From NCBI RefSeq assembly GCF_030811455.1, contig NZ_JAUSQU010000001.1, forward strand, positions 2,232,001 through 2,296,000: DNA of 64,000 nucleotides, given 5' to 3'. Under the pieces are notes generated by a model. The model worked only from the letters and a program-made list of their open reading frames with translations. It was not told the origin of the DNA and did no database searches. A program made the translations under genes and the position numbers. Below are positions 16,779 to 31,606 of this stretch, piece by piece (the stretch's first letter is position 1; each line of letters starts with the position of its first letter). The stretch is from Streptosporangium lutulentum (lineage in GTDB: Bacteria; Actinomycetota; Actinomycetes; Streptosporangiales; Streptosporangiaceae).

Positions 16779-16805
16779 TCGCGGTGACGACCACGCGCAG
16801 GTCCG

Positions 16806-16825
16806 GGGCCGGGCCGGGCCGGGCC
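16806..16825. repeat. Four tandem GGGCC units
   Basis: GGGCC occurs four times in direct tandem, followed by GGACC. The tract lies in the 122-bp gap after the LAL regulator, next to a 7-bp hairpin at 16860-16877. It may assist termination; slippage is also possible. Confidence 0.6.
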
Positions 16826-16900
16826 GGACCCGGCTCGCCCGTCCGCGCCCGGACCCGGTACCCGGCCGAGGCCGGGTGACGAACCGATAGGTTGAACCGC

Positions 16901-17713
16901 ATGGCTGTTGCGTTGATCGACTCCGGGCTGGGACTTCTCCCGACGGCAGGATGGCTTCGGTATCTCCGTCCCGACCTCGACCTCGTGCTGTGCCTGGATC
17001 CCGAGGGCATGCCGTGGGGGCCTCGCAGTGAGGCGTCGATCACCGAACGGGTCCTGGCGGCGGCGAAGGCGGTCGCCGAGATGGAGCTCGACGCCATCGT
17101 GGTTCCGTGCAACACCGCGAGCGTCACGGCTCTGGACGCGCTGCGGGCGATGTTCGAGCCCGGCGTGCCGGTGGTGGGAACGGTGCCCGCGGTGAAACCG
17201 GCGGCCGCCACCGGTGAGCCGTTCGCCGTGTGGGCCACCGCCGCGACCACCGCGAGCGACTACCAAGCGCGCCTGATCGACGCCTTCGCCAACGGGCGAC
17301 CCGTCGAACGGGTGGCATGCCTCGGGCTCGCCGAGGCGGTGGAGCGCGGAGACCTCGAAGCGGCGCGCGAGGCCATCGCCGACGCGGCGAAGCGAACGCC
17401 CGGGCACTGCACGGGGGTGGTCCTCGGGTGCACCCACTACCCGCTGGTCAGTGCGGAGATCGCGGCCAGTATGCCCGGCGTCGCCAATCTCTACGACAGC
17501 GCCGAGGCGGTGGCCCGCCAGACCTTGAGGCGTCTGAACCTGCCCGAGCGATCCGACACCGGTCTCGGCGCGGTCGAGGTCCTGCTCAGTGGCAGGGCCG
17601 GGACGCTTCCCGCGAGCGCGCACGTTTTCCCTCTCGGCCGCGCCATCGCCTCGGGTGAACGGATCACCCGTGACCTCCTGCCGGAGGCGACCTCCCGCAC
17701 GCCCGGTCACTGA
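16901..17713 (+). CDS. Glutamate racemase-like (Asp/Glu racemase superfamily) protein
   Basis: The 270-residue product has both cysteine motifs of cofactor-independent glutamate racemases: VPCNTAS near residue 71 and LGCTHYPL near 180. These provide the two catalytic thiols that would interconvert L- and D-glutamate for peptidoglycan. The N-terminal DSGLG matches the substrate-binding aspartate segment. Spacing and length are normal. The gene is not next to rnz/rph-type neighbours where the housekeeping murI usually lies, so this may be a second racemase. An in-frame TTG nine bases upstream is an alternative start. Confidence 0.82.
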   Translation: MAVALIDSGLGLLPTAGWLRYLRPDLDLVLCLDPEGMPWGPRSEASITERVLAAAKAVAEMELDAIVVPCNTASVTALDALRAMFEPGVPVVGTVPAVKPAAATGEPFAVWATAATTASDYQARLIDAFANGRPVERVACLGLAEAVERGDLEAAREAIADAAKRTPGHCTGVVLGCTHYPLVSAEIAASMPGVANLYDSAEAVARQTLRRLNLPERSDTGLGAVEVLLSGRAGTLPASAHVFPLGRAIASGERITRDLLPEATSRTPGH

Positions 17714-17792
17714 TCGTCGCTCCCCGCATGCCGTGCACCCCATCGGACGCCCCGTAAGGATGTCGGCGATGTCCGCTTTATCCGACTGTGAC

Positions 17793-17822
17793 TTGACGTC
17801 GAACGCGTCCAGCCGGTTACAT
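17793..17822 (+). promoter_or_regulatory. Promoter of the lacI-ABC-ARH operon
   Basis: TTGACG (17793-17798) and TTACAT (17817-17822) are separated by 18 bp. Transcription would start near 17829, just before the first LacI-type operator. The placement predicts repression by roadblock or exclusion of polymerase and autoregulation of lacI together with the whole operon. Confidence 0.6.
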
Positions 17823-17833
17823 TCCCTCATCCC

Positions 17834-17878
17834 GTAAACGTTTTCAGGGTTTTCTACATCACCCCTGTAAACGTTTAC
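17834..17878 (+). promoter_or_regulatory. Two LacI-type operators 33 bp apart
   Basis: GTAAACGTTTAC at 17867-17878 is a perfect 12-bp palindrome with the central CG typical of LacI/GalR operators. GTAAACGTTTTC at 17834-17845 differs at one position. Their centres are 33 bp apart, about three helical turns, so two dimers would bind the same face of the DNA. Both lie between the predicted transcription start and the GTG of lacI. Confidence 0.82.
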
Positions 17879-17902
17879 CGACTTTGACGACCGAGGTGAC
17901 AC

Positions 17903-18916
17903 GTGAATGAAGGGCCGACGATCACGACGATCGCCCAGCACGCGGGCGTGTCGATCGCCTCGGTGTCGCGCGTGCTCAACGGGCTACCCACCAGGGCCGA
18001 AACCGAACGCCGCGTGATGAGCTCCGCACGGGAGCTCGGCTACGTGCCGAACTCGATGGCCAGGTCGCTGAAGTCCAGGCGCAGCAACCAGATCGGCTTC
18101 GCGATGGCCGACATAGGCAACCCGGTGTACCTCGCGATGATCCGCGAGATCCAGCCGGTGCTCAAGGAGGCCGGCTACCGGCTCGTCCTGCACTCCACCA
18201 ACGTGGACGCCGCCGACGAGATCAGCGTGCTGCGCGGCCTCGGGGAGCGGTATGTGGACGGCCTCATCATGATCCCGCTGCGTGTGACCGACGAGCACCT
18301 GAAGATGTTCGCCGCCGCCCGCGCGCCGATCGTGATCATCGGTTCGGTCCCCGAGGGCACTCGCGTCGACAACGTGAGGACCGACTCACGTCTGGGGGTG
18401 CGCCTCGCCGTCGAGCACCTTCACGGCCTCGGCCGCAGGCGGATCGGCTTCGTGAACGGCCCGCTCGACACCATCCCCGGCGCCGCCCGCTCGGCCGCCT
18501 ACACCGAGGCGCTGGCGGCGCTCGGCCTGCCGTACGACCCCGGCCTGGTGCAGGTGGGCGACTTCTACCGCCCGGAAGGCGCCCGGGCCACGGCCCGACT
18601 GATCGAACGCGCGCCCGACCTCGACGCGCTGCTGTGCGCCAACGACCTGATCGCGCTCGGGGCGCTCGACGTCCTGCGGCGCGAGAGACGGCGGGTGCCG
18701 GAGGACGTCGCCGTGGCGGGCATGGACGACACCGACCTCGCCACCGTGGCCTGGCCCCCGCTGACCAGCGTCTCGCTCGGCTCGGCCGAACGCGGCCGGG
18801 CGGCGGCCGAGCTCCTGCTCGACCGGCTGGCCCGCGGTGACCGCGCGCCCCGAGCGGTCACCGTCGAGCCCCGGCTCGTGATCCGCGCCTCGACCACGGG
18901 GGAGGAGAACTCATGA
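17903..18916 (+). CDS. LacI-family transcriptional regulator
   Basis: The 337-residue repressor has the LacI HTH (TITTIAQHAGVSIASVSRVL, residues 6-25), the hinge helix containing ARSLKSRR and a periplasmic-binding-protein-like sensor domain. GAGGTGA two bases before the GTG at 17903 fixes the start. It is the first gene of its own operon, behind two operator sites, and its stop overlaps the first permease gene (ATGA). The ligand is expected to be the transported compound or a catabolite of it, possibly a riboside; this is inferred from the downstream genes. Confidence 0.93.
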   Translation: MNEGPTITTIAQHAGVSIASVSRVLNGLPTRAETERRVMSSARELGYVPNSMARSLKSRRSNQIGFAMADIGNPVYLAMIREIQPVLKEAGYRLVLHSTNVDAADEISVLRGLGERYVDGLIMIPLRVTDEHLKMFAAARAPIVIIGSVPEGTRVDNVRTDSRLGVRLAVEHLHGLGRRRIGFVNGPLDTIPGAARSAAYTEALAALGLPYDPGLVQVGDFYRPEGARATARLIERAPDLDALLCANDLIALGALDVLRRERRRVPEDVAVAGMDDTDLATVAWPPLTSVSLGSAERGRAAAELLLDRLARGDRAPRAVTVEPRLVIRASTTGEENS

Positions 18917-19845
18917 CTTTGACGGCCGACAGGACGCGAAAGCCCGCCACGGGTCACGGCGGGGCGAAGAAGAGGAGCCGGCAGGGGCGCGAGACGTTAG
19001 TGCTCATGCTGCCGGCGCTCGTGCCGGTGCTGATCTTCAGCGTCGGACCGCTGCTCTACGGCATCTTCCTCGCCTTCACCGACGCCAGGTCGGGGCGCAA
19101 CGCCGTGACCTCCTTCGTGGGCCTGTCGAACTTCGGCGAGCTGATGACCGACGCGGACTTCTGGGCGTCGTTCCGCATCGGCCTGATCTGGGCGGTCTCG
19201 GTCACCGTGCTGCAGTTCCTGGCCTCGCTGGGGCTGGCCCTGCTGCTCAACGAGAACCTGCGGTTCCGGTCGTTCGCCCGGGTGCTGGTCCTGGTGCCGT
19301 GGGCCATGCCGCCCGTCGTCATCGGGCTGATGTGGCGGCTCGTCTACCACCCGAACGCCGGGATCCTCAACAGCATGCTGCAAGAGGCCGGCCTGCTCGA
19401 CCACAACATCGACTGGCTCAACAACTTCTCCATCGCGCTACCCGCGGTGATCGTCGTCGGGATCTGGACGGGCATGCCGCAGACGACCGTCGTGCTCCTG
19501 GCGGGACTGCAGAGCGTGCCCAAGGAGCTGTACGAGGCCGGCCACATGGACGGGGCCTCGACCTTCCGGCGCTTCTGGAGCATCACGCTGCCGCAGCTGC
19601 GCCCGGTCATCGTGACGATCACGTCCCTGGACTTCGTCTGGAACATCAACCAGTTCGGCCTGGTCTACGTCCTCACCCAGGGCGGGCCGGGCGGGCAGAC
19701 CAGGCTGCCGATGCTCTTCGCCTACGAGGAGGCCTTCCGCTACGGCTTCTTCGGGTACGCGGCCACGCTCGGCGTCGCCTTCGTGATCGTCGTGCTGGCC
19801 GTGCTGGGCCTCTACATATGGCGGCAGCTGCGAGAGGCGAACTGA
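18913..19845 (+). CDS. Carbohydrate ABC transporter permease (MalF-like)
   Basis: The 310-residue integral membrane protein has six hydrophobic segments and the cytoplasmic EAA loop ELYEAGHMDGASTFRRFWSI at about residues 210-229, which docks on the ATPase. An N-terminal basic tail of 30 residues precedes the first helix. It overlaps lacI by four bases and precedes the MalG partner by one base. No ATPase gene is in the operon, so the shared MsiK-type ATPase probably energises uptake. A rare TTA leucine codon stands at 18997 (codon 29). Confidence 0.92.
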   Translation: MTLTADRTRKPATGHGGAKKRSRQGRETLVLMLPALVPVLIFSVGPLLYGIFLAFTDARSGRNAVTSFVGLSNFGELMTDADFWASFRIGLIWAVSVTVLQFLASLGLALLLNENLRFRSFARVLVLVPWAMPPVVIGLMWRLVYHPNAGILNSMLQEAGLLDHNIDWLNNFSIALPAVIVVGIWTGMPQTTVVLLAGLQSVPKELYEAGHMDGASTFRRFWSITLPQLRPVIVTITSLDFVWNINQFGLVYVLTQGGPGGQTRLPMLFAYEEAFRYGFFGYAATLGVAFVIVVLAVLGLYIWRQLREAN

Positions 19846-19846
19846 C

Positions 19847-20665
19847 ATGCGCAGACCACTGCAGTACCTCGCCCTGCTGGGCTACGTGATCTTCCTGGCC
19901 TTCCCGATCGTCTGGCTGCTGTCCACGGCGCTCAAGTCGTCGCGGGAGATGGCGAGCCTGGTCCCGACGTGGATCCCGCGCCACCCGATCCTGTCGAACT
20001 TCGCCGACGCGTTCAGCGAGCAGGACCTCGTCGGCAGCGCGCTGCGCAGTCTGGCGGTGGCGGTCGCGTGCTCGGTGCTGACCATCGTGATCGCGCTGCC
20101 CGCCTCGTACGCGATGGCCCGCCACCGCTCGCTCATCAGCAGGTTCGCGGTCGGCTGGGTGCTCGTCAGCCAGGTCTTCCCGTTCATCCTGATCATCATC
20201 CCGCTCTTCATGGTGCTGCGGAGCCTGGGCCTCGTGAACACCCTGCCCGGCCTCACCGTCGTGCACGTCACCTTCGTGCTGCCGTTCGCGCTGTGGATGC
20301 TCCAGGGGTACGTGCGTGCGGTGCCGCGTGAACTGGAGGAGGCCGCGGCGGTCGACGGCGCGGGCCGGATCCGCTCCCTGGTGAAGATCGTCGCGCCGCT
20401 GCTCGCCCCCGGCGTGGTCGCCACGGCGCTGTTCGCGTTCATCTCCTCCTGGAACGAGTTCCTGTTCGCACTGGTCGTCCTCAAGGACCCCGACGTGGCG
20501 ACCCTGCCACTGACCCTCGTGAAGTTCACCGGCGCGGAGGGGGTCGTACGGCTCGGCCCGCTCGCGGCGGCGTCACTGCTCGCGACGATCCCGAGCCTGG
20601 TGTTCTTCGCGATCATCCAGCGACGACTCAGATCGGGCCTGATGGCCGGTGCCGTCAAGGGATAG
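19847..20665 (+). CDS. Carbohydrate ABC transporter permease (MalG-like)
   Basis: The 272-residue permease has six membrane segments and the EAA loop ELEEAAAVDGAGRIRSLVKI near residues 162-181. It follows its MalF-like partner directly and pairs with it to form the membrane channel. The C-terminal ending RRLRSGLMAGAVKG is the standard end of MalG proteins. The substrate-binding lipoprotein follows after about 60 bp. Confidence 0.93.
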   Translation: MRRPLQYLALLGYVIFLAFPIVWLLSTALKSSREMASLVPTWIPRHPILSNFADAFSEQDLVGSALRSLAVAVACSVLTIVIALPASYAMARHRSLISRFAVGWVLVSQVFPFILIIIPLFMVLRSLGLVNTLPGLTVVHVTFVLPFALWMLQGYVRAVPRELEEAAAVDGAGRIRSLVKIVAPLLAPGVVATALFAFISSWNEFLFALVVLKDPDVATLPLTLVKFTGAEGVVRLGPLAAASLLATIPSLVFFAIIQRRLRSGLMAGAVKG

Positions 20666-20724
20666 CACCAAAAGAAACCCCCTCAACCATGGCGAAGCCA
20701 CAGCATCCCCCGAAGGAGAATCAC

Positions 20725-22041
20725 TTGCGTACCAGAACCGCACTCGCGGTGGCGGCGGTCATGACGGCCGCGCTGACGGCCGGCTGCTCGTCGGCCGGAG
20801 GCACCGGCGCCGGCGGCGGTGACCAGGCCTCCGGGCCGGTGAGCCTGAAGTTCCTGAGCCTCGCCTGGCAGAAGGAGTCCATCGCCGCGAACAAGCAGCT
20901 CGTCGACGAGTGGAACAAGGCCAACCCCGACACCCAGGTCGAATACGTCCAGGGTAGCTGGGACAACGTCAACGACCAGCTCGTCACCTCGTTCGAGGGC
21001 GGTGACCCGCCGGACGTCATCCACGACGACTCCCCGGCGCTCGCCGGCTTCGCCTCGCGCGGCTACCTCATGGACCTCACCGGCAAGCTTCCCGCCGAGC
21101 TGAAGAGCGACATCCCCCAGCCCGCCTGGGACACCGTGACCTTCGCCGACGGCAAGGGCGGCCAGGGCGTGTACGGCGTGCCCTTCCTCCAGGAGTCGCA
21201 GGTCATCATCGCCAACAAGAAGCTGCTCGACGCGGCGAAGGTCCGCATCCCGACCCCCGAGGCCCCCTGGACCTGGGACGAGTACGCCGAGATCAGCAAG
21301 AAGCTCACCAAGGACGGCGTCTTCGGGGTGGCCTGGCCGCTGAAGGCGCCCGTCAACAAGGTGCTCAACCTCGGCCTGAACTTCGGCGGCACCTTCTTCA
21401 CGACCGACGGCACCAAGGCCACGGTCAAGGTCGGTCCCGAGGAGCGCGAGGTGCTCCAGCGCATCCACGACCAGCTCTACAAGGACAAGTCGGCCGACCC
21501 GTCCGCGCTCGGCATGGGCACCGCCGACCCGCTGCCCGGTTTCTACGCGGGCAAGTACGCCATGCTCCCCGCGGGTGTCTACCTTCGCCAGCAGGTCGTG
21601 GAGCAGGCCCCGCCCGGCTTCGAGTGGATCACGATCCCGCCGCTGAAGGGCACCACCTCCGAGCAGGGCGCCACGTCGCAGACCCTGTCGGTCGCGGCCG
21701 ACAGCGCGTACCCCGACCAGGCGACGAAGTTCATCGCGTTCTTCCTGAACAGCACCAACCAGGCCAAGCTCGCCAAGGGCGACTGGCTGCTCCCGACCAG
21801 CATGAAGGCCGCGAGCGACCCGTCGATGACGACGACGGAGAACGGCTGGGACGTGGCGACCGCCTCCGCCAAGGACCTCGTGGTCGCCCCCTACCTGCGG
21901 GTGAACGGGTTCGACGAGTGGAAGAGCAAGGTGGCGACGCCCACCCTGCAGCAGTACTTCGCCGACAAGATCACCCTTGACCAGGCGGCCGAGACGCTCG
22001 TCGCGGAGGGCAACAAGGTGCTGGAGCGTTACAACAAGTGA
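20725..22041 (+). CDS. Extracellular solute-binding lipoprotein of the ABC importer
   Basis: The TTG at 20725 stands six bases after GAAGGAGAA and opens a 438-residue protein with a lipoprotein signal: RTRTALAVAAVMTAALTAGC, with the lipid-modified cysteine about 22 residues in. The mature protein is a family 1 (cluster B-type) sugar-binding protein; WDNVNDQLVTSFEGGDPPDV matches the conserved domain I segment. It should capture the substrate outside the membrane and deliver it to the two permeases. An upstream in-frame ATG at 20689 would add a non-signal extension and is disfavoured. The stop overlaps the first ARH gene as GTGA. Confidence 0.93.
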   Translation: MRTRTALAVAAVMTAALTAGCSSAGGTGAGGGDQASGPVSLKFLSLAWQKESIAANKQLVDEWNKANPDTQVEYVQGSWDNVNDQLVTSFEGGDPPDVIHDDSPALAGFASRGYLMDLTGKLPAELKSDIPQPAWDTVTFADGKGGQGVYGVPFLQESQVIIANKKLLDAAKVRIPTPEAPWTWDEYAEISKKLTKDGVFGVAWPLKAPVNKVLNLGLNFGGTFFTTDGTKATVKVGPEEREVLQRIHDQLYKDKSADPSALGMGTADPLPGFYAGKYAMLPAGVYLRQQVVEQAPPGFEWITIPPLKGTTSEQGATSQTLSVAADSAYPDQATKFIAFFLNSTNQAKLAKGDWLLPTSMKAASDPSMTTTENGWDVATASAKDLVVAPYLRVNGFDEWKSKVATPTLQQYFADKITLDQAAETLVAEGNKVLERYNK

Positions 22042-23000
22042 AACTGAACCGCGCCCGGGGGTGCCTGCTCGGCCTGGCGGCCGGCGACGCCCTCGGGCGG
22101 CCCGCCGAGAACCTCGCCCCGGGGGAGATCGCCCGGCGCTGGGGCCGTCTCACCGAGATCGAGCCGGGCATGGGCGGCACCGACGACACCGAGTACACCG
22201 TCTTCGCCTCCTCCCTGCTGTGCAAGTACGGCTCGGCGATGACCTCCTCCGACGTCGCCAGGGAGTACCGCGAGCAGATCATCCCGAACATCGAGGGACC
22301 GATGCGCGGCGCGGGCTTCTCCGAGCTCGGGGCCATCCAGGCGCTGCGCCGGGGCATCGAGCCACCGCTGTCCGGTCTGTGGCACCAGCACGGATGGTCG
22401 GACGGGCTCGCCATGCGCGCCGCGCCGTACGGGATCTTCGCGACCGGCGACCCGGACGAGGCGGCCCGGCTGGTGGCGGTCGACGGGGTGGTGAGCAACA
22501 GCGGCGAGGGCGTGTACGGCGGCCAGGCCGTCGCCGCCGCGGTGGCCGTCGCCATGACCGGGGCCTCGCCGAACGAGGTCGTCGAGGCCGGGATCGCCGC
22601 CGTCCCCGAGGACTCCTGGACCTCCCGCAACCTGCGGGCCGCCGTCGCGGCCGTCGCGGCGGGATCGGCCGAGGAGCTGTACGAGGCCGTGGTCGTGCGC
22701 CACTACCCCTGGACGGACCTCGCGCCCGAGGCGGTCGCGCTGGCCTTCGCCGGATACCTCATGGGCGCGGGCGAGGTCGAGGAGTCCGTGGTGTCGGCCG
22801 CCAACCTCGGCAGGGACGCCGACACCACCGCCGCGATCGCCGGCGCCCTCGCAGGGGCGGGGCGCGGCGAGAGCGCCGTACCGGCGCGGTGGGCAGGGGA
22901 GATCGGCCCGGTCACGGGCAGGTGCCTTCCGGTCGTCGCCGGGCGTCACGTGCTCGACGTCGCCACCGAGCTGGTGGCCGCGACGGAGAGACCGGTGTGA
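22038..23000 (+). CDS. ADP-ribosylglycohydrolase family protein, copy 1 (complete metal motifs)
   Basis: The 320-residue protein has all three ARH/DraG signatures: GLAAGDALGRPAE near residue 11, the metal-binding GTDDTEYT near 54 and NLGRDADTTAAIAGALAGA near 257. The TDD and DxD aspartates coordinate the two Mg2+ ions that position a ribosyl substrate. The GTG start overlaps the binding-protein stop, so it is translated together with the transporter. Known family members remove ADP-ribose from proteins or small molecules. Within a sugar-uptake operon that includes ribokinase, a small imported N- or O-riboside is a more likely substrate. That assignment is inference. Confidence 0.88.
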   Translation: MKLNRARGCLLGLAAGDALGRPAENLAPGEIARRWGRLTEIEPGMGGTDDTEYTVFASSLLCKYGSAMTSSDVAREYREQIIPNIEGPMRGAGFSELGAIQALRRGIEPPLSGLWHQHGWSDGLAMRAAPYGIFATGDPDEAARLVAVDGVVSNSGEGVYGGQAVAAAVAVAMTGASPNEVVEAGIAAVPEDSWTSRNLRAAVAAVAAGSAEELYEAVVVRHYPWTDLAPEAVALAFAGYLMGAGEVEESVVSAANLGRDADTTAAIAGALAGAGRGESAVPARWAGEIGPVTGRCLPVVAGRHVLDVATELVAATERPV

Positions 23001-23074
23001 ACGCCCGCGCGAGCCGGCGGGCACGTTCACGGCACCGGTCCGAAGGATGTTCACGGCACCGGCCTGAGAGATAA
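22997..23074 (+). other. Candidate coupling mini-ORF between ARH copies 1 and 2 (25 codons)
   Basis: A GTG overlapping the copy 1 stop opens a 25-codon arginine-rich frame that ends in TAA ten bases before the next ATG. It contains a 14-bp direct repeat. Coding status is unproven. Confidence 0.3.
23025..23062 (+). repeat. Two direct copies of a 14-bp sequence
   Basis: GTTCACGGCACCGG occurs at 23025-23038 and again at 23049-23062, a period of 24 bp. It lies in the only longer gap between the first two ARH genes. It may be a duplication scar or a binding site for a regulator or small RNA. Confidence 0.7.
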
Positions 23075-23083
23075 AGGAGAGAC

Positions 23084-24055
23084 ATGTCATCGGGGGACAG
23101 GATCCGCGGGGCCTTCATCGGCCTCGCGATCGGCGACGCGGCCGGTTGGCCGTCCGCGCGGCACCGCTCCGCGCTGCTCGCGCCCTGGAGCAGGCGGCTC
23201 GGGCGGGAGCTGGACGGCTTCGCCGAGGAGCATCGGGTCACGACTCCGCCCGTGCCCTTCACACTGAACCAGCCCGTCGAGCCGCTGGCGATCGGGCCGT
23301 CCGACGACGCCGAGTGGCTGGCCTGGACCGCGCTCACCATCCATGAGGACCGCGCCGAGGCCTTCGGCAGGCTGGCGGGCCGGTCGGACCTGCGCGTGCG
23401 GATCTCCGTGCGCTCGGCGCTGGACAACCTGGCGGCGGGCAAACGGCCCCCGGCCAGCGGTCACGACAACCCGCACTTCTTCGACGACGCGGCGGCCGTA
23501 CGGGCCGTCGCCTTCGGGGCGATCGGAGCCGACCCGAGGGCCGACGCCTCGGTCACCAACGCCGGGGACGGCGTCCACGCGGCGATGGCCGTGGCGGCGG
23601 CGGTCACCGAGCTGGTGGCGGGCGCCTCGATGGTCTCGGCCGTCGAGGCGGCCCTGGCCGAGCTGCCCGAGGACACCGCGATCGGTTACGCGACGAGGAC
23701 GGCGCTCGCGGTGGCGCGAAAGGCGGGCGACCCCTTCGCGGCGGTCCCTGCCCTGGACGCGGCCCTGCTCGACCACGTCTACAGCTACGGCGTCGCGGCC
23801 TCGCAGACGGTCGCGGTGGCGCTCGCGCTCGCGGAGGTGTCGCAGGGCTCGCTCAGCGCGGCCGTGCCCGCCGCCGCGTGCCTGCCCTCGCTCGCCGACT
23901 CCGCCCCCGCGCTGACCGGGGCGCTGACCGGGGCTTTCACCGGGTACGAAGCGCTTCCGGAAGGCTGGCGGGCCGCGGCGCGCACGCTGACCGGCTGCGG
24001 CCTGCCGGACCTGGCAGGAACGGATCTCATCGACATCGCTGGAGGACTCGCATGA
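23084..24055 (+). CDS. ADP-ribosylglycohydrolase family protein, copy 2 (degenerate metal site)
   Basis: The 323-residue protein keeps the fold signature GLAIGDAAGWPSA near residue 14 and a PSDDAEWLAW motif near 73. The C-terminal motif reads PSLADSAPALTGALTGA where relatives have GRDADT, so the first of the two metal-binding aspartates is replaced by leucine. The protein has the usual length, so it is not a truncated pseudogene. It may have lost hydrolase activity, bind a single metal or act on a different ligand. An AAAGGAGAG site precedes the ATG. The stop overlaps copy 3 (ATGA), suggesting a heteromeric or sequential role. Confidence 0.82.
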   Translation: MSSGDRIRGAFIGLAIGDAAGWPSARHRSALLAPWSRRLGRELDGFAEEHRVTTPPVPFTLNQPVEPLAIGPSDDAEWLAWTALTIHEDRAEAFGRLAGRSDLRVRISVRSALDNLAAGKRPPASGHDNPHFFDDAAAVRAVAFGAIGADPRADASVTNAGDGVHAAMAVAAAVTELVAGASMVSAVEAALAELPEDTAIGYATRTALAVARKAGDPFAAVPALDAALLDHVYSYGVAASQTVAVALALAEVSQGSLSAAVPAAACLPSLADSAPALTGALTGAFTGYEALPEGWRAAARTLTGCGLPDLAGTDLIDIAGGLA

Positions 24056-25224
24056 CGCCGCAGGACGATCTGCTGACCGACAAGGCCGTCGGATGTGTGA
24101 CGGGCGCGGCGGTCGGCGACGCGCTCGGCGGCGCGACCGAGGGCTGGACGTCCGAGCAGATCCAGGACCGCTACGACGGGTACGTGACGGGCATCGTCCC
24201 GCCGTACTTCGAGGACTGGCGCAACGCCCGTCCCATCGCCCCGTACCACAAGGGCGACGGCCACGTCACCGACGACACCCTGATGACCCACGCGCTGATC
24301 CGCGTGTACGAGAAGGCCGGCCGGCACCTGGACGCGTACGCGGCGGCCGAGTACCTGGTGCCCGAGATGATGGGCGAGAAGCGCTGGATCCCCGAGCTGG
24401 AGGCCGAGGCCCTGCCCCTGCAACGGGTCTTCCTCGCTGAGAAGTGGCTGGTCCTGCGCCTGCACTACGGCCACGTCGACCCGCGCGAGGCGGGCGTCGG
24501 CAACATCGTCAACTGCGGCGCCGCCATGTACATGGCACCGGTCGGCATCGTGAACGCGGCCAACCCCGACGCGGCGTACGCCGAGGCCGTCGACCTGGCG
24601 GGCGCCCACCAGTCCAGCTACGGCCGGGAGGCCGCCGGGGTGCTCGCCGCCGCCGTCGCCGAGGCCATGCGCCCGGGCGCGAGCGCGGACTCGGTGGTCG
24701 CCACGTGCCTGCGCCTGGCGCGGGACGGCACGCGGGCCGCCATCGAGGCCGTCTGCGAGCGGGCACGGGACTTCGGCCACTGGGAGGGATCGTTCGGCGC
24801 GCTGCGCGAGGCCGTCGCCCCCTACGACACCGTCGCGGAGACCTACCGTGACCAGGGGCTCGGAGCCCGGAGGCCGAGCCGCCTGCACAGCATCGAGGAG
24901 TTGCCGCTGGCGCTCGCCTTCCTGCTGATCGCCGGGGGCGACTACCGCGACACCGTCCTCGGGGGCGTGAACTACGGCCGTGACGCCGACTCGATCGCCA
25001 GCATGGGCGGGGCGATCGCCGGGGCGCTCTCGGGCGCCAAGGCGGTGCCCTCGGAGTGGCTCGACCCGGTGGCGGAGGCCAGCAGGATCGACCTGGTGGC
25101 CCCCGGCGTGTCCATCGCCGAGGTGGCCCGCCGCCTCCACGTCGCCGACCTCGCCACCCGCCGGGCCCACGAGAGCGCCTTCACCTCCCTGACCTGGGAC
25201 ACCTCCGCGGGCGAGACGGCATGA
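24052..25224 (+). CDS. ADP-ribosylglycohydrolase family protein, copy 3
   Basis: The 390-residue protein is the longest single-domain copy with full motifs: GAAVGDALGGATEGW near residue 18, HVTDDTLMTHALI near 74 and NYGRDADSIASMGGAIAGAL near 305. Compared with copy 1 it has an insertion rich in aromatic residues (YFEDWRNARPIAPYHKG) before the TDD motif, which would shape the substrate pocket differently. GGAGG stands six bases before the ATG, which overlaps the stop of copy 2. It is probably an active Mg2+-dependent ribosyl hydrolase; its particular substrate is unknown. Confidence 0.87.
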   Translation: MTPQDDLLTDKAVGCVTGAAVGDALGGATEGWTSEQIQDRYDGYVTGIVPPYFEDWRNARPIAPYHKGDGHVTDDTLMTHALIRVYEKAGRHLDAYAAAEYLVPEMMGEKRWIPELEAEALPLQRVFLAEKWLVLRLHYGHVDPREAGVGNIVNCGAAMYMAPVGIVNAANPDAAYAEAVDLAGAHQSSYGREAAGVLAAAVAEAMRPGASADSVVATCLRLARDGTRAAIEAVCERARDFGHWEGSFGALREAVAPYDTVAETYRDQGLGARRPSRLHSIEELPLALAFLLIAGGDYRDTVLGGVNYGRDADSIASMGGAIAGALSGAKAVPSEWLDPVAEASRIDLVAPGVSIAEVARRLHVADLATRRAHESAFTSLTWDTSAGETA

Positions 25225-25304
25225 CCGGCCGGACCCGGGATCGGCGGAGGGCGGACGGCGTGACCGCTTCGATCAGGGACGTCTCAGCGGGGGAGAGGGC
25301 ATGA
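25221..25304 (+). other. Candidate coupling mini-ORF between ARH copies 3 and 4 (27 codons)
   Basis: The ATG overlaps the stop of copy 3 and the TGA overlaps the ATG of copy 4, both as ATGA. The 27-residue product starts MTGRTRDRRR and ends GERA. It could keep ribosomes moving between the genes. Confidence 0.35.
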
Positions 25305-26680
25305 CCGATCGCCTGATCCGGCTGACCTGGGTGCAGCCGGAGGACCTGGTCGGCCACGAGCTGCGCCAGGCGGCCCAGGACGGCCGCCGGGCGGAGGCCG
25401 CGGGGATCGCCGCCCGGTGGCACTCCGCCGGAGGGCACGACGCGCCGCCCCGGGCGGGGGCCTCTCCGGAACCCGCCACGCCGGAGCTGCGCCGCCTGGC
25501 CGGGGAACTGCTGGACGAGCTGGCCGCGATCCCGTCCCCCCTTCCCGAGCCGTCCGGGCTTCCCGGCATCCTTGCGAGCGCTCCCGGAGCCCCGGCCCCG
25601 GTGGCCGCCGACCCCGGCGGGCTCTCCGAACGGCTGCTCGGCGCGTGGCTCGGGCGCGCCGCCGGGTGCGTGCTGGGCAAGCCGGTGGAGAAGATCCCCC
25701 GCGAGGGCATCAGGGAGATCGCGGAGGCCACCGGCAACTGGCCCATCCGGGGCTGGTTCACCGCGGCCGGCCTTCCCGGCGACGTGGCGGCCCGCTGGCC
25801 GTGGAACAGGCGCAGCGCCGTCAACTCCCTGGCCGAGAACATCGACGGGGTGCCCGAGGACGACGACCTCAACTTCCCGCTGCTGTCCCTGTCCCTGCTG
25901 GAGCGCTTCGGCCGGGACTTCACCACCGCGGACGTCGCCGCGATGTGGCTGGACGAGCTGCCCGCGGGCCGCGTCTTCACCGCCGAACGGGTGGCGTACC
26001 GCAACCTGCTCGACGGGGTGGAGCCACCGGGCACGGCGACGTGGCGCAACCCGTTCAGGGAATGGATCGGCGCGCTGATCAGGGCGGACGTGTACGGCTG
26101 GGTCAACCCGGGCGACCCCCGCACCGCGGCCGAGTTCGCCTGGCGGGACGCCCGTCTCAGCCACACCGCCAACGGGATCTACGGCGCGATGATGGTCGCG
26201 GCCATGTGCGCGAGCTCCCTCGTCGCCTCCTCGGTCAGGGAGGTCGTCGCCGCGGGGCTCTCCGTCGTCCCCGCCGGGTCGCGGCTGGCGCGAGCCGTAC
26301 GGGACGCCGTCGCCGACGCGGAGTCCGAGCCGGACTTCGAGCGGGTGGTGGACCGGCTGTACGAGCGTCACGGCGGCCTGCACTGGGTCCACACGATCAA
26401 CAACGCGGCGCTGGTCGCGGCGGCCCTGACCCATGGGCGCGGGGATTTCACGGCCTCGATCGCCGGGGCCGTCGCCGGAGGCTGGGACACCGACTCGGCG
26501 GGAGCGACGGTGGGATCGATCGCGGGCGGGCTGCTCGGCGCGTCAGGGATCCCCGCCGAGTGGGCGCTGGAGAACCGGCTGGCCAGCGGCATGCGAGGTT
26601 TCGACGGCATCGGCTTCGACGAGCTCACCCGCCGTACCCTGGCGGTCGCGGGGGCACAGCCGTGCGACCCGGCGTCATGA
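25301..26680 (+). CDS. ADP-ribosylglycohydrolase family protein, copy 4 (N-terminally extended)
   Basis: The 459-residue protein has about 110 extra N-terminal residues, beginning MTDRLIRLTWVQPEDLVGHE and rich in proline and alanine, ahead of the ARH domain. In that domain the first signature is GRAAGCVLGKPVEK, with cysteine where other copies have the GD aspartate. The metal motifs are VPEDDDLNFPLL and GGWDTDSAGATVGSIAGGLLGA, so metal binding is probably retained. A GGGGGAGAGG site precedes the ATG. This belongs to a separate ARH subgroup often found with carbohydrate kinases. Its role next to ribokinase supports a ribosyl-releasing step. Confidence 0.87.
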   Translation: MTDRLIRLTWVQPEDLVGHELRQAAQDGRRAEAAGIAARWHSAGGHDAPPRAGASPEPATPELRRLAGELLDELAAIPSPLPEPSGLPGILASAPGAPAPVAADPGGLSERLLGAWLGRAAGCVLGKPVEKIPREGIREIAEATGNWPIRGWFTAAGLPGDVAARWPWNRRSAVNSLAENIDGVPEDDDLNFPLLSLSLLERFGRDFTTADVAAMWLDELPAGRVFTAERVAYRNLLDGVEPPGTATWRNPFREWIGALIRADVYGWVNPGDPRTAAEFAWRDARLSHTANGIYGAMMVAAMCASSLVASSVREVVAAGLSVVPAGSRLARAVRDAVADAESEPDFERVVDRLYERHGGLHWVHTINNAALVAAALTHGRGDFTASIAGAVAGGWDTDSAGATVGSIAGGLLGASGIPAEWALENRLASGMRGFDGIGFDELTRRTLAVAGAQPCDPAS

Positions 26681-26751
26681 CCCGCCCGTCCCGGCGGTCG
26701 CGGGCAGCCGGTCACCACCGGGTGACGGGCGAGCGAGAGGACAGAGCATGA
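26677..26751 (+). other. Candidate coupling mini-ORF between ARH copy 4 and ribokinase (24 codons)
   Basis: It begins at an ATG overlapping the copy 4 stop and ends at a TGA overlapping the ribokinase ATG. The product MTRPSRRSRAAGHH... ends in GEREDRA, similar in ending to the mini-ORF at 25221. Confidence 0.35.
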
Positions 26752-27623
26752 TCTCGGTTTTCGGCAGCGCCAACATGGACCTGGTCGCCTACACCGCGAC
26801 CGCCCCCAGGCGTGGCGAGACGGTGACCGGCCGGGCGTTCGGCACGGTGCCCGGCGGCAAGGGCGCCAACCAGGCCGTCGCCGCGGCCCGCGCCGGCGCC
26901 GAGGTCGCGTTCGTCGGCGCGGTGGGGGACGACGCCTTCGGGCCGGTCATGCGAGAGACCCTGGAGTCGGCGGGCGTGGACGTGAGCCGCCTCCGGGTCG
27001 TGCCGGGCTCCTCGGGCATCGCCCACATCGTCGTCGACGACGAGGGCGGCAACTCCATCATCGTGATCCCCGGCGCGAACGGCACCGTGACGGGCGTCTC
27101 TCAGGACGATCTCTCCGTCATCGCCCGCTCCGACGCGCTGCTGCTCCAGCTCGAACTGCCCATGGAGGCCGTGGTGGCCGCGGCCCGCCAGGCCGAGGTC
27201 CCCGTGATCCTCACTCCCGCCCCGGCCCGGGAGCTGCCGTCCGAGCTGCTCGGCGCCGTCGCCCTGATCGTGCCCAACGAGCACGAGGCCGAGGCGATCA
27301 CCGGTCTCGCCGACCCCGGCGAGGCACTCGAGGCGCTGCTGGACCTCGTCCCCGAAGCCGTGATCACCCTCGGCGGGCGGGGCGCGCTGTACGGCTCGCG
27401 TTCCGGCGAACGGCTGCGCGTGCCCGCCGTACCGGTGAAGGCGGTCGACACCACGGCGGCGGGGGACACCTTCGTCGGCGCGCTGGCCGTGGCGCGGGCC
27501 GAGGGCAGGCCGCAGGCGGAGGCCCTGCGGTTCGCCGCCACGGCGGCGGCCCTGTCGGTGCGGCGCGAGGGCGCCAGCACGTCGATGCCCACCCGCGCCG
27601 AGATCGACGCGGCACTGCGGTGA
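26748..27623 (+). CDS. rbsK: Ribokinase (PfkB family)
   Basis: The 291-residue kinase has the ribokinase N-terminal signature GSANMDLVAYTATAP, the sugar-binding GGKGANQAVAAARAG near residue 38 and the C-terminal PfkB signature DTTAAGDTFVGAL near 235 with the catalytic aspartate. It would phosphorylate D-ribose at O5 using ATP. In this operon ribose would come from ARH-type cleavage of an imported riboside. The ATG at 26748 is supported by homology beginning there and by the overlap with the preceding mini-ORF. Other PfkB substrates such as modified nucleosides cannot be excluded. Confidence 0.88.
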   Translation: MISVFGSANMDLVAYTATAPRRGETVTGRAFGTVPGGKGANQAVAAARAGAEVAFVGAVGDDAFGPVMRETLESAGVDVSRLRVVPGSSGIAHIVVDDEGGNSIIVIPGANGTVTGVSQDDLSVIARSDALLLQLELPMEAVVAAARQAEVPVILTPAPARELPSELLGAVALIVPNEHEAEAITGLADPGEALEALLDLVPEAVITLGGRGALYGSRSGERLRVPAVPVKAVDTTAAGDTFVGALAVARAEGRPQAEALRFAATAAALSVRREGASTSMPTRAEIDAALR

Positions 27624-27751
27624 CCGCCGCCGGGCCCGCCCGCGTCCCGGCGACGGTCACCGGACGCCGATCCTCGCCGCGTCGAGCCGTACGGGGACAC
27701 CGCGCCGAGCCCCCGGCGGGCGTGGCCGAGAACATGGAGGAACACCGATGA
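27620..27751 (+). other. Candidate coupling mini-ORF between ribokinase and CoA-transferase (43 codons)
   Basis: A GTG overlapping the ribokinase stop opens 43 codons that end at a TGA overlapping the ATG of the CoA-transferase. It has an internal ATGGAGGAA that also provides the ribosome site of the next gene. Confidence 0.3.
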
Positions 27752-28920
27752 AAGCCCTGGAAGGCGTCCGCGTCCTCGACCTCGCGACGCTGTTCGCCGG
27801 ACCGATGGCGGCGATGCTGCTCGGTGACTTCGGCGCGGAGGTCGTCAAGGTCGAGCACCCGGCCAAGCCGGATCCCTCGCGAGGGCACGGGCCCGGCGGT
27901 CTGTGGTGGAAGATGCTCGGCCGCAACAAGCGGGCCATGACCCTGGATCTGTCCACGACCGAAGGCCAGGACCTGCTCCTCGCCCTGGTGCGCGACGCCG
28001 ACGTGGTCGTCGAGAACTTCCGGCCGGGAACGCTGGAGCGGTGGAACCTCCCCTACGACCGGCTCCGTGAGGTCAACCCGCGCCTGGTGCTCGCCCGGGT
28101 CACGGGCTTCGGCCAGTTCGGGCCGTACGCGAAACGGCCCGGGTTCGGCACGCTCGCCGAGGCGATGAGCGGGTTCGCCGCGATGACCGGCGAGCCCGAC
28201 GGGCCGCCGACCCTGCCGCCGTTCGGCCTGGCCGACGGCATCTGCGCCCTCGCGACGGCCTACGCCGTGATGGCGGCGCTTCGCGCGCGTGAATCCACCG
28301 GGGTGGGGCAGGTGGTCGACATGTCGATCATCGAACCCATCCTGACGGTGCTCGGGGCCCAGCCGACGATCTACGACCGGCTCGGGATCGTGCCGCCCCG
28401 CACCGGCAACCGTTCGGTGAACAACGCGCCGCGCAACACCTACCGGTGCGCGGACGGCTCCTGGGTGGCGGTGTCGACCTCGGCGCAGAACATCGCCGAG
28501 CGGGTCATGCGTCTGGTCGGCAGGCCCGAGTACATCGCCGAGCCGTGGTTCGCCACCGGCGCGGGACGGGTCGAGCACGCCGCCGAACTCGACGAGGCCG
28601 TCGCCGCCTGGGTCGCCGCGCGGACCCGCGACGAGGTGCTGACCGTGTTCGAGGAGGCACAGGCCGCGGTGGCGCCGATCTACGACGTGCGCGACGTGCT
28701 GACCGATCCGCAGCTCACCGCCCTGGACGCCGTCACCACCGTGGAAGACCCCGAGCTCGGGCCGCTGCGGATGCAGAACGTCATGTTCCGGCTGTCGGAC
28801 ACCCCGGGAGAGATCCGCTGGACCGGCCGTCCCCACGGCGCCGACACCTCCGGCCTGTTGTCGGAGCTGGGCCTGTCGGCCTCGGACATCGAGACACTGC
28901 GAGAGAAGGGAGTGGTCTGA
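27748..28920 (+). CDS. Class III CoA-transferase (CaiB/BaiF/formyl-CoA transferase family)
   Basis: The 390-residue protein starts MKALEGVRVLDLATLFAGPM and contains LLGDFGAEVVKVEHP, VENFRPGTLERW and GLADGIC with the likely catalytic aspartate near residue 168. These are diagnostic for the family, which moves CoA between carboxylic acids. ATGGAGGAA upstream supplies the ribosome site. Directly followed by a CitE-like lyase, it probably activates a hydroxy-dicarboxylic acid to its CoA thioester so that the lyase can split it. The acid may be the aglycone of the imported compound. The pairing is known for citramalate- and itaconate-type pathways; use here is inferred. Confidence 0.9.
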   Translation: MKALEGVRVLDLATLFAGPMAAMLLGDFGAEVVKVEHPAKPDPSRGHGPGGLWWKMLGRNKRAMTLDLSTTEGQDLLLALVRDADVVVENFRPGTLERWNLPYDRLREVNPRLVLARVTGFGQFGPYAKRPGFGTLAEAMSGFAAMTGEPDGPPTLPPFGLADGICALATAYAVMAALRARESTGVGQVVDMSIIEPILTVLGAQPTIYDRLGIVPPRTGNRSVNNAPRNTYRCADGSWVAVSTSAQNIAERVMRLVGRPEYIAEPWFATGAGRVEHAAELDEAVAAWVAARTRDEVLTVFEEAQAAVAPIYDVRDVLTDPQLTALDAVTTVEDPELGPLRMQNVMFRLSDTPGEIRWTGRPHGADTSGLLSELGLSASDIETLREKGVV

Positions 28921-28994
28921 TGCCGGACCGCCCGCCCGAGACGGACCCGGCCATCCCGCACGCGCCGCCTACGAGGGGAGCCGGGTCGTGCTGA
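28920..28994 (+). other. Candidate coupling mini-ORF between CoA-transferase and lyase (24 codons)
   Basis: The ATG overlaps the CoA-transferase stop (TGATG), and the frame ends seven bases inside the lyase gene. The product MPDRPPETDPAIPHAPPTRG is proline-rich. Coding status unproven. Confidence 0.3.
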
Positions 28995-29803
28995 CCTTTC
29001 TGTACGCGCCCGCCGACCGGCCGGCGCTCGTGGCCAAGGCGCTCGCCGGGCCCGCCGACGTGGTCATCGTCGATCTGGAGGACGCCGTCGCGGCGGACGG
29101 CAAGGGCCAGGCCCGGGCGGAGCTCGTACGGCTGCTCGCCTCTCCTCAGCCGCGTGTCCAGATCAGGATCAACGACGTGCGCACGGCCTGCGGCCAGGCG
29201 GACCTGCTGGCCATCGGAGCCCTGTGCTCGGGCACGGCCGGCATCCGGGTGCCGAAGGTCGAGTCGGCCGCCGACGTCCGTGACGTCGCCGAGGCCGTGC
29301 CGGGCATCGCGTTGCACCCGCTCGTCGAGTCGGCCCTCGGCCTCGAACGGGCCTACGAGATCGCCTCGGCCGATCCGGCGGTGGCGAGCATCGGCCTGGG
29401 TGAGGCGGACCTGCGTGCGGACCTGGGCGTCAGCGACGAGGCGGGCCTGGCCTGGGCGCGGTCGCGGGTGGTGGTCGCCGCCCGCGCGGCCGGACTGCCG
29501 TCGCCCGTCCAGTCGGTCTACACCGACTTCCGCGACCTGGAGGGCCTGGCCGAGTCGTGCCGCGTCGGCCGTTCCATGGGTTTCCGCGGCCGGGCCGCCA
29601 TCCACCCGGCCCAGCTCGCGGTCATCGAGGCCGCCTACCGCCCGACGGAGGAGGAGGTCATGGCCGCCAACGAGGTCGTGGCGGCGGCCGGAGTCGGCGC
29701 CGTGGCGCTCCCGGACGGCCGCTTCGTCGACGAGGCCGTCGTCCGCCAGGCCAGAAGCGTCCTCACCGACGCCCTCCGCACCCCGTCGATCGGCTCGGGC
29801 TGA
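28988..29803 (+). CDS. CitE/HpcH-type CoA ester lyase (aldolase)
   Basis: The 271-residue TIM-barrel protein starts with GTG (LTFLYAPADRP) and has DVVIVDLEDAV near residue 28, RINDVRT near 60, PKVESAADV near 85, a metal-binding GLGEADLRADLG near 138 and GRAAIHPAQLAVIEAAY near 200. These are the CitE signatures: arginine, glutamate and aspartate for Mg2+ and the CoA ester. It would cleave a 3-hydroxy-acyl-CoA such as malyl- or citramalyl-CoA into acetyl-CoA and an oxo acid. It is the last gene before a hairpin terminator and closes the LacI-controlled operon. Confidence 0.88.
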   Translation: MLTFLYAPADRPALVAKALAGPADVVIVDLEDAVAADGKGQARAELVRLLASPQPRVQIRINDVRTACGQADLLAIGALCSGTAGIRVPKVESAADVRDVAEAVPGIALHPLVESALGLERAYEIASADPAVASIGLGEADLRADLGVSDEAGLAWARSRVVVAARAAGLPSPVQSVYTDFRDLEGLAESCRVGRSMGFRGRAAIHPAQLAVIEAAYRPTEEEVMAANEVVAAAGVGAVALPDGRFVDEAVVRQARSVLTDALRTPSIGSG

Positions 29804-29874
29804 CGAGACGGCCGGTGCGGCCGCCTCGCAGATCCGAAGGCCGGACTCGCGATGGTCTTCAAGCCGGTCGAGCC

Positions 29875-29908
29875 GCCCCGGGCCCGCCTTCATGGCCGGG
29901 CCCGGGGC
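29875..29908. terminator. 12-bp hairpin between convergent genes
   Basis: GCCCCGGGCCCG (29875-29886) pairs exactly with CGGGCCCGGGGC (29897-29908) around ten bases, of which some may pair further. It lies about 70 bp after the lyase stop and 50 bp from the stop of the minus-strand MFS gene, so it can serve both. Confidence 0.75.
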
Positions 29909-29959
29909 GACGGCGTCTCGCCCGGAGTGCCGCTCAGTCCGCCTGCGGAAAGGGAACGG

Positions 29960-31438
29960 TCACGAACCGGCGGAGGGCGCCGTGGCCGGAGTCGGGGCGA
30001 GGGGGTGCGGTGCCACCGGGGCCGGAGCCGGGCGGCGGCGAGGGAGGAAGGCCGCGAAAACGAAGGCGACGAGAGCCGCCCCGGCGCCGATGGCCATGAC
30101 CGTGCGGAAGCCGTTCGCGGAGGGGAAGGTGGCGGCGCCGACGGTGGTGGTCATCTGGGCCAGGACGACGCCGGCCACCGCGCTGGAGATCGAGGTGCCC
30201 ATGGACCGCATCAGCGTGTTGAAACTGTTGGCGGCGGCCGTCTCCGACACCGGCACGGCCGCCATGACCAGCGCGGGCATGGCTCCGTACGCGAGGCCGA
30301 TGCCGGCTCCGATCACGGCGGAGACGAGCACGAGGTGCCAGACGGCGGACATCAGCGCGATGCTCAGGCCGTAGCCGGCGGCGACCACGATGGCGCCGAG
30401 CATCAGTGTCACCTTCGGGCCCTTGGCCTTCGAGATCCGCGCGGACAGAGGTGCCGTGACCATCATCACCAGACCGGACGGCGCCAGCACCAGGCCCACG
30501 GCCAGCATCGACTGGCCCAGGCCGTAGCCGGTGGCCTTCGGCAGCTGCAGAACCTGCGGAAGCACCAGGGACATCGCGAACATCGCGAATCCGAACACCG
30601 CGGACGCGAGGTTGGTGAACAGCACCTGCCGGCGGACGGTGGTGCGCAGGTCCACCAGCGGCTCCCGGGTGCGCAGTTCCCACCAGCCCCACAGGAGGAG
30701 TACGACGACCGACACGCCGAACAGGCCCAGGGTCTGGGCACTGCCCCAGCCCCAACCGGCGCCCTTGGAGATGGCCAGCAGCAGGCAGAGCAGTCCGGTC
30801 GACAGCCCGGCCGCACCTACCACGTCGAAGCGTCCTCCGGTGCGGACGGCGGACTCCGGTACGAGCGTCAGCACGAGCACGGTGGCGACGGCGCCGAAGC
30901 CCGCCGCCGTCCAGAACAGCATGTGCCAGTCGGCGCGTTCGGCCAGCAGGGCCGCCGCGGGCAGGCCGAGTGCGCCGCCCACCCCCAGCGAGGCGCTCAT
31001 CAGCGCGGTCGCGGAGCCGAGCCGCTCGGCCGGGAGTTCGTCGCGCATGATGCTGATCCCCAGCGGGATGACCCCGGCTGCCAGACCCTGAAGCGCGCGT
31101 CCGACGACCAGGGGCGTCAAGGTGTCGCTGAGAGCGGCGACGGCCGAACCCGCCACCAGCAGGACAAGGCTGAGCAGCAGCATGCGTCGCTTGCCGTACA
31201 TGTCACCCAGCCGTCCCATCACCGGCGTCGCGACGGCGCCGGCGAGCAGCGTGGCGGTGATCGCCCAGGTGGCGTCGGACGGGGAGGCTCCCAGGAGCGT
31301 GGGAAGTTGGGGGATGAGCGGGATGATCAAGGTCTGCATGAGCGAGACCACGATCCCGGAGAGAGCCAGCACCGCCACGATGGTGCTCGCCCGCGATGGG
31401 GCGACGGTTTGGGCGGTTTGGGAAGGGGTGCGGGGCAT
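29960..31438 (-). CDS. MFS drug exporter (DHA2, EmrB/QacA-like)
   Basis: The 492-residue membrane protein has about 14 hydrophobic segments, motif A GRLGDMYGKRRMLL near residue 75, and motif C-like GLGVGGALGLPAAALLA. These place it among proton-driven multidrug antiporters of the DHA2 family. The proline-rich cytoplasmic tail (RRRPAPAPVAPHPLAPTP) is usual. It is divergent from a tetR gene with a palindromic operator between them, which suggests ligand-induced export. A terminator separates it from the convergent lyase gene. Confidence 0.9.
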   Translation of the reverse strand: MPRTPSQTAQTVAPSRASTIVAVLALSGIVVSLMQTLIIPLIPQLPTLLGASPSDATWAITATLLAGAVATPVMGRLGDMYGKRRMLLLSLVLLVAGSAVAALSDTLTPLVVGRALQGLAAGVIPLGISIMRDELPAERLGSATALMSASLGVGGALGLPAAALLAERADWHMLFWTAAGFGAVATVLVLTLVPESAVRTGGRFDVVGAAGLSTGLLCLLLAISKGAGWGWGSAQTLGLFGVSVVVLLLWGWWELRTREPLVDLRTTVRRQVLFTNLASAVFGFAMFAMSLVLPQVLQLPKATGYGLGQSMLAVGLVLAPSGLVMMVTAPLSARISKAKGPKVTLMLGAIVVAAGYGLSIALMSAVWHLVLVSAVIGAGIGLAYGAMPALVMAAVPVSETAAANSFNTLMRSMGTSISSAVAGVVLAQMTTTVGAATFPSANGFRTVMAIGAGAALVAFVFAAFLPRRRPAPAPVAPHPLAPTPATAPSAGS

Positions 31439-31484
31439 GGTGATGCTTTCGTTTCGGCATCCAAGACAAGCGCGATGACGAGCA

Positions 31485-31506
31485 TTAAATCAAGCGCTTG
31501 ACTTAA
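31485..31506. promoter_or_regulatory. TetR-type operator and promoter in the MFS/tetR divergent region
   Basis: TCAAGCGCTTGA (31490-31501) is a perfect 12-bp palindrome, extended to 22 bp (TTAA to TTAA, 31485-31506) with one mismatched pair. It overlaps TTGACT (31498-31503), the -35 of a promoter with TTTACT at 31522-31527 reading toward tetR. A regulator bound here would block both directions. Confidence 0.75.
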
Positions 31507-31567
31507 GCTAACAGCAATAGGTTTACTGACCGCCAACGGGTGGTCGTTCCGGAAGGAGGTGCCCACG

Positions 31568-31606
31568 ATGAGGCAGGGTGACGGTGAGCATGGCCGTCCG
31601 GGCTGA
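31568..31606 (+). other. Possible 12-codon leader ORF overlapping the tetR start
   Basis: A near-perfect AAGGAGGT (31553-31560) stands seven bases before an ATG at 31568 that is out of frame with tetR. The 12-codon product MRQGDGEHGRPG ends within the tetR coding start. It could couple translation of tetR or be a trace of a frameshift at the true tetR start. Confidence 0.4.

Follow-up and report, generated by a model that had tools for sequence, protein, structure and literature searches.

The yegTUV operon of Escherichia coli combines a transporter, a protein of the ADP-ribosylhydrolase (ARH) family and a PfkB kinase under a local repressor, GgaR/YegW, and PMC10819704 describes the function of its enzymes as not known. 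The same combination occurs in an operon of Streptosporangium lutulentum, at positions 17903–29803 on the plus strand of a 64,000-nucleotide stretch of the 10.6 Mb genome (contig NZ_JAUSQU010000001.1, positions 2,232,001 to 2,296,000; hereafter the window). The operon runs from a LacI-family regulator through two permeases, a solute-binding protein (SBP) and four ARH proteins (ARH-A to ARH-D) to a ribokinase, a CaiB-type CoA-transferase and a CitE-like lyase. A first-pass annotation made from the letters alone had named these genes as a collinear set, and profile matches bear out both the arrangement and the families. The operon is not of the yegTUV type, since it pairs LacI with a PF01547/PF00528 importer, whereas yegTUV has an MFS nucleoside-type transporter, a GntR repressor, a single ARH gene and no CoA-transferase or lyase. 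Identity to YegU is 26% for ARH-A and 25% for ARH-C, and ARH-B and ARH-D align with it in short pieces only. Four of the seven PF03747 places in the genome lie in this operon. A second ARH set in the same genome (L179:3828-8913; G000:C1, about 5165800–5170900) comprises an NCS1-type permease (PF02133), an isochorismatase-family hydrolase, a GntR/UTRA regulator, an ARH protein 34% identical to YegU and a PfkB kinase.

Local sugar regulons of the LacI family are also similar, with a local LacI gene, sites before their own operon, an ABC importer and a palindromic operator with a central CG, as here. They differ in that the proteins of the present operon include no match to a glycoside hydrolase (GH) family and have ARH proteins instead. 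In a term search, 'ADP-ribosyl' and 'CGTTTAC' were both absent from the main text of the 2014 LacI regulon survey (PMC4052901). All four ARH proteins share the fold of DraG, ARH1 and ARH3, and ARH-A, C and D share their two-metal motifs, but identity is low, the context is that of a sugar-type importer, ARH-B lacks one metal ligand, and the loop that reads xNGAAMR in DraG and YegU is altered. Streptomyces coelicolor has four consecutive ARH/DraG homologues, as here. These genes, SCO2028–SCO2031, are listed as uncharacterised DraG/ARH homologues in PMC9411070, and SCO2028–2030 as uncharacterised hydrolases in PMC5087735; in the accessible text of the two papers they carry a hydrolase label without an operon or catabolic role. 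In the PMC open library, outside which subscription journals lie, no paper describing an ARH operon of this kind was among the matches listed.

On balance we lean towards reading the window operon as the central part of a catabolic regulon under LacI control. It would serve an imported, carbohydrate-like compound, most likely an ester-bearing glycoside containing a furanose such as ribose. The regulator (17903–18916; PF00356, PF13377) is followed by an importer of CUT1-type arrangement, with two PF00528 permeases (P1, of UgpA/MalF type, 18913–19845, whose best NCBIfam match is UgpA, below cut-off; P2, 19847–20665) and a carbohydrate-type SBP (20689–22041; PF01547), with no ATPase gene within the operon. 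Most PDB relatives of the SBP bear the name of a sugar-binding or an extracellular binding protein. The genes had been described as tightly overlapping. This is true of the LacI-P1, SBP-A and B-C junctions, each a 4-base overlap, and not of the A-B, C-D, D-ribokinase, ribokinase-CaiB and CaiB-CitE junctions, which have gaps of 67–124 bases.

Relatives of ARH-B (at E 1e-10) and ARH-C (at E 1e-60) occur in 87 and 83, respectively, of 249 genomes of the order. We picked 40 loci with wide flanks, from 39 of the 87 ARH-B-positive genomes, for their spread over genera, and also read one further ARH-B-positive place and six ARH-C-bearing loci without a close ARH-B. Gene starts in the relatives come from our own simple gene caller. 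In 33 of the 40 loci (the main type) the genes run LacI-P1-P2-SBP-A-B-C-D, all on a single strand. By this comparison the conserved order exceeds chance, and it upholds the earlier proposal of a regulated, conserved gene set with ARH genes where a sugar operon has glycosidases. ARH-C and ARH-D overlap by 4 bases in 25 of the 33 main-type loci, as do ARH-D and the ribokinase in 20 of 27. Ribokinase is present in 27 of the 33, CaiB in 22, CitE in 18 and all three in 13; on these counts the ribokinase and CaiB-CitE are accessory to the block. Counts by named genome rest on the best 80 loci, of which 12 were left out for short flanks and 68 were scored for presence of the genes in the locus, not for their adjacency. 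ARH-A, B, C and D lie on one strand in 67 of the 68 (by that test L103 lacks ARH-C), and LacI and the importer are also present in 42. The taxa among the best 80 include Streptosporangium, Sphaerisporangium, Microbispora, Microtetraspora, Nonomuraea, Actinoallomurus, Nocardiopsis, Allokutzneria and Streptomyces, and the closest named relatives by ARH-A, among the matches listed, are Streptosporangium and Sphaerisporangium.

Two other arrangements accompany the main type. The remaining seven of the 40 loci (L054–L058, L076 and L077) have only ARH-A and ARH-B of the ARH genes, accompanied by permease genes and by their own regulator, and contain no ARH-C, ARH-D, ribokinase or operon-type CoA genes. 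At L054 the A-B importer locus adjoins RpiR, SIS_2 and BadF-type kinase genes. Among the six divergent ARH-C-bearing loci, five have ARH-C and ARH-D followed by a further protein, X, without ARH-A, ARH-B or ribokinase and in four cases with CaiB-CitE; the contig of the sixth breaks off. Protein X, of 534–709 residues, follows ARH-D in seven loci (L047:11565-13166, L050:12096-14171 and L165–L169) and precedes CaiB in six of them, and none of the seven has a ribokinase relative. An FGE-sulfatase domain is the sole family name obtained for X; its N-terminal part looks by eye like a TIM-barrel glycosidase, with no family match. From the main-type, A-B-only and C-D-X loci together, it looks as if C-D is a constant hydrolase pair to which A-B can be added, with ribokinase and X as alternatives.

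Each of the four ARH proteins scores above the 26.2-bit cut-off of PF03747: ARH-A (22038–23000; 188.9 bits, 2e-55), ARH-B (23084–24055; 97.3 bits, 1.7e-27), ARH-C, the most conserved (24052–25224, with 24052 the best start, scanned from 24055; 162.9 bits, 1.7e-47), and ARH-D (25301–26680; 174.9 bits, 3.7e-51), which has an N-terminal extension of about 100 residues. Predicted structures of ARH-B and ARH-D have the ARH fold (mean pLDDT 82 and 83; Foldseek), with DraG as the best matches of ARH-B, and sequence comparison relates ARH-A and ARH-C to DraG, ARH1 and ARH3. The metal motifs of the family are E...DD...DxD[ST], and PMC6309922 reports that mutation of a single metal ligand already abolishes activity in human ARH1 and Latimeria ARH3. 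Among distinct sequences longer than 250 residues, the second motif is present in 107/107 copies of ARH-A, 92/93 of ARH-C (one is truncated) and 92/94 of ARH-D (the pattern is unmatched in L126 and L141). The first DD is present in 107/107, 93/93 and 92/94, and the Glu in 103/107, 92/93 and 91/94. ARH-B is different: across 100 distinct sequences the first DD is always present, the Glu in 2 of 98 readable copies and the first Asp of the second motif in none of 99. Judged by these residues, the two-metal site is complete in ARH-A, C and D and incomplete in ARH-B, so that the four two-metal enzymes first announced become three. As ARH-A and ARH-B are adjacent, ARH-B is probably a non-catalytic partner of ARH-A. 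It resembles human ARH2, for which activity has never been found according to PMC9738213, and an active and a degenerate paralogue side by side are reminiscent of ARH1 and the inactive ARH2.

The two LacI-type operators reported earlier are real. They read GTAAACGTTTTC at 17834–17845 and GTAAACGTTTAC at 17867–17878 on the plus strand, are conserved in relatives, and lie between a possible promoter and the LacI gene. This promoter (17793–17823, plus strand) was read by eye as TTGACG at 17793 and TACATT at 17818; it has no match in a consensus scan, whose limits its 19-base spacing exceeds. We surveyed the regions upstream of LacI in relatives, dropping genes with fewer than 200 bases upstream and identical upstream regions. 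The operator, with at most two mismatches, is found in 66 of 66 distinct regions and is paired in 62. There are 128 such sites in 19 kb of LacI upstream sequence and 2 in the remaining 1.2 Mb of the loci. The exact operator occurs in 30 of 33 operon-bearing genomes, and a reversed control in none. In the S. lutulentum genome the 12-mer GTAAACGTTTAC is found exactly only at this operon; with one mismatch it is found at four places, two of which are these operators, and the reversed control pattern at one. The other two one-mismatch sites were considered as regulon members and set aside, as gene reading found no esterase or sugar gene set behind them.

In these 33 operon-bearing genomes, exact sites away from the operon number seven, and six of them lie 11–80 bases before the same PF00756 esterase gene (L192–L197). 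Its product, of about 700 residues, combines the PF00756 domain with SBBP beta-propeller repeats and an N-terminus that reads by eye like a signal; the L192 copy is split into pieces by our gene caller. Among solved structures, the propeller is closest to CylK, and the front part to an esterase, a putative esterase and feruloyl esterases. The gene is present in 19 of the 249 genomes, all of them among the 83 that bear ARH-C, and the exact operator stands upstream of it in 19 of 19 (L198–L216). The hypergeometric probability of this association is 1.9e-10, ignoring relatedness, and 14 of the 19 genomes are of one genus. In some species, then, one LacI operator type seems to control both the operon and an esterase that is presumably secreted.

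The kinase (26748–27623, with 26748 the best start, scanned from 26754) scores 303.0 bits against the TIGR02152 ribokinase equivalog, above its cut-off of 299.65. The class III CoA-transferase of CaiB type (27748–28920) matches PF02515 at 7.7e-126 and scores 231.4 bits against a succinate-glutarate CoA-transferase profile with a cut-off of 750. The lyase (28988–29803) scores 172 bits against RipC (cut-off 375) and 131 against citE (cut-off 443), with acyl-CoA lyases as its relatives in the PDB. These last two enzymes thus have family matches and reach no equivalog cut-off. Itaconate degradation also uses a CoA-transferase and a CitE-like lyase (RipC/Ccl), but here the RipC cut-off is missed and there is no hydratase gene in the operon. 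CaiB is missing from 11 of the 33 main-type loci, and all 11 genomes have a CaiB at 64–69% identity elsewhere; among 23 genomes whose operon includes CaiB, 4 carry a further copy at a minimum of 60%. This complementary distribution is confounded by descent, as 9 of the 11 genomes belong to one genus. Eight of the eleven genomes gave nine other CaiB places, of which seven have CitE adjacent and four are followed by a gene pair of 445–447 and 74–75 residues (of DctM type in the scanned L181). FCD-type GntR genes were confirmed at the scanned places L181 and L184. The pattern fits a carboxylic-acid unit, CaiB-CitE, that was incorporated into the operon or is shared by it, and descent could explain it too. 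The earlier division into a sugar branch and an acid branch thus stands in part, as CaiB-CitE also forms a unit apart from the operon, with an FCD-type GntR regulator and a DctM-type transporter in scanned loci.

An ester-bearing furanoside is the simplest candidate substrate we can think of whose breakdown would call for an esterase as well as an importer, for furanosidases and a pentose kinase, and for a CoA branch that handles a hydroxy acid. We propose the following sequence of steps. In some genomes only, the esterase, presumably secreted, would trim or free the compound outside the cell, which the SBP and the two permeases would then import. ARH-A, C and D would hydrolyse glycosidic bonds with two metal ions, with ARH-B as a non-catalytic partner of ARH-A; riboside cleavage is suggested by the chemistry of the family and by the ribokinase. 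The released pentose would be phosphorylated by the ribokinase, CaiB would attach CoA to the hydroxy acid set free, and retro-aldol cleavage by the CitE-like lyase would split it. LacI would repress the genes until the compound or a product of it is present. A bolder form of this reading, which we put forward tentatively and with some doubt, is that these proteins are a new class of catabolic glycosidase. The ARH fold would have been recruited four times, with one non-catalytic member paired with ARH-A, and would cleave furanosidic bonds of an environmental ester-bearing compound, passing ribose to the ribokinase and a hydroxy acid to the CoA-transferase and retro-aldol lyase. The Streptomyces 'DraG homologues' would then be sugar-catabolic, not protein de-ADP-ribosylases. 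The first-pass annotation had the anatomy right and the function partly right; it did not foresee that ARH-B is probably inactive or that the same operator precedes an esterase gene elsewhere in the order.

Several observations weigh against a regulon for an imported, ester-bearing glycoside with a furanose such as ribose. The enzymes occur without LacI and the importer in 25 of the 68 scored named loci, all 25 titled Streptomyces, and an orthologous binding protein is found elsewhere in only 7 of 12 importer-less Streptomyces genomes, so the system does not always include import. In Streptomyces, a search for an operator common to the enzyme module and the transporter found none (0 of 30 upstream regions, 0 of 7 transporter loci). 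The S. lutulentum genome has no exact operator outside the operon and, at E 1e-100, no propeller esterase, and the seventh off-operon site in the relatives precedes a ricin-lectin-domain protein. The five divergent loci that join C-D to a glycosidase-like, FGE-domain protein, without ribokinase or A-B, fit a sugar other than ribose. By our residue mapping, ARH-A, C and D retain a Gly, and ARH-C, ARH-D and most ARH-A copies a His, equated with pyrophosphate contacts of ARH1 and ARH3, which makes a nucleotide-like ligand possible. The suspicion raised at the outset, that ARH genes might be scattered independently of the transporter and kinase, meets a divided answer: they are tied to the importer in the 33 main-type loci, but 25 of the 28 Streptomyces loci with enough flank are without LacI and importer (L130, L142 and L153 keep both).

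The importer-less Streptomyces form is itself well ordered, with A-B-C-D-ribokinase-CaiB-CitE in 23 of the 25 loci. Where the flanks were scanned, a VIT1 gene lies beside the module in L123 and lgt in L126, and gene sizes suggest the same chromosomal spot in other Streptomyces loci. Judging from the run of four tags and from the gene order in Streptomyces, SCO2028–2031 are probably the Streptomyces form of the A-D module. The seven genomes with a binding protein elsewhere have an importer trio in which that protein is 50–54% identical. These trios (L158–L164) have no ARH gene nearby, and most lie near a glycosyltransferase-like gene, read as macrolide type by size and, in L158 and L159, also by sequence.

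We regard it as unlikely, though a serious alternative, that an oligosaccharide or plant glycoside with a sugar other than ribose (another furanose, for example) serves as the substrate, with the ARH proteins as glycosidases for it and the specificity of the kinase shifted. The carbohydrate-type SBP and permeases would suit such a substrate, as would the CE1-like esterase (with feruloyl esterases among its PDB relatives) that some genomes place behind the same operator, the glycosidase-like X in seven loci without ribokinase, and the one A-B importer locus beside SIS-domain and BadF-type kinase genes. The kinase argues for ribose, being above a curated ribokinase cut-off and kept in most main-type loci, as does human ARH1, in which the distal ribose, according to PMC6309922, has its 2'' OH between the two metals and its 3'' OH in contact with one of them. 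It appears improbable that the operon salvages ADP-ribose, breakdown products of NAD or compounds resembling nucleosides, with ARH proteins acting on small-molecule ADP-ribosyl or ribosyl-base bonds. We know of no CUT1-type importer for nucleotides, and no nudix, phosphatase or base-catabolic family is found among the matches of the operon proteins. Salvage would agree with the chemistry of ARH1 and ARH3, whose substrates include alpha-NAD, O-acetyl-ADP-ribose and alpha-ADP-ribosyl acceptors (PMC9738213), and with the YegU-like ARH of the same genome beside a PF02133 permease and a PfkB kinase; against it, the activity of SCO2028 and SCO2030 on U-alpha-ADPr, the one substrate reported, was undetectable (PMC13036486). 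A nucleoside-hydrolase reading was dropped, with no such family among the matches of the operon proteins. It is very improbable that the ARH proteins are ordinary enzymes for removing ADP-ribose from proteins or nucleic acids, lying by chance in a sugar operon, as the printed listing of SCO2028–2031 (PMC9411070) and the mostly importer-less Streptomyces module might suggest, since four ARH genes are tied to one importer in the main-type loci, ARH-B is degenerate in 99/99 readable copies yet kept beside ARH-A, and the esterase is under the same operator.

Around the operon, an open reading frame (ORF) at 16892–17713, just upstream of LacI, reads like an Asp/Glu racemase, and a large regulator-like ORF at 13974–16778 has by reading an ATPase-like N-terminus and a LuxR-like C-terminus. 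Directly downstream, on the minus strand, 29960–31438 reads like an MFS exporter. An Rfam scan of 16500–31600 at gathering thresholds gave no match.

ADP-ribosyl hydrolase is the usual name for bacterial PF03747 proteins, and the papers on Streptomyces, in the text accessible to us, label them likewise (PMC9411070, PMC5087735). Here three intact and one degenerate ARH protein stand behind a sugar-type importer, in a conserved operon that also has LacI operators, a ribokinase and a branch for a hydroxy acid; this makes small molecules the likely substrates of part of the family. The reading of the window operon as a catabolic regulon would give SCO2028–2031 a directly testable assignment, and may offer a hint for reading yegTUV.

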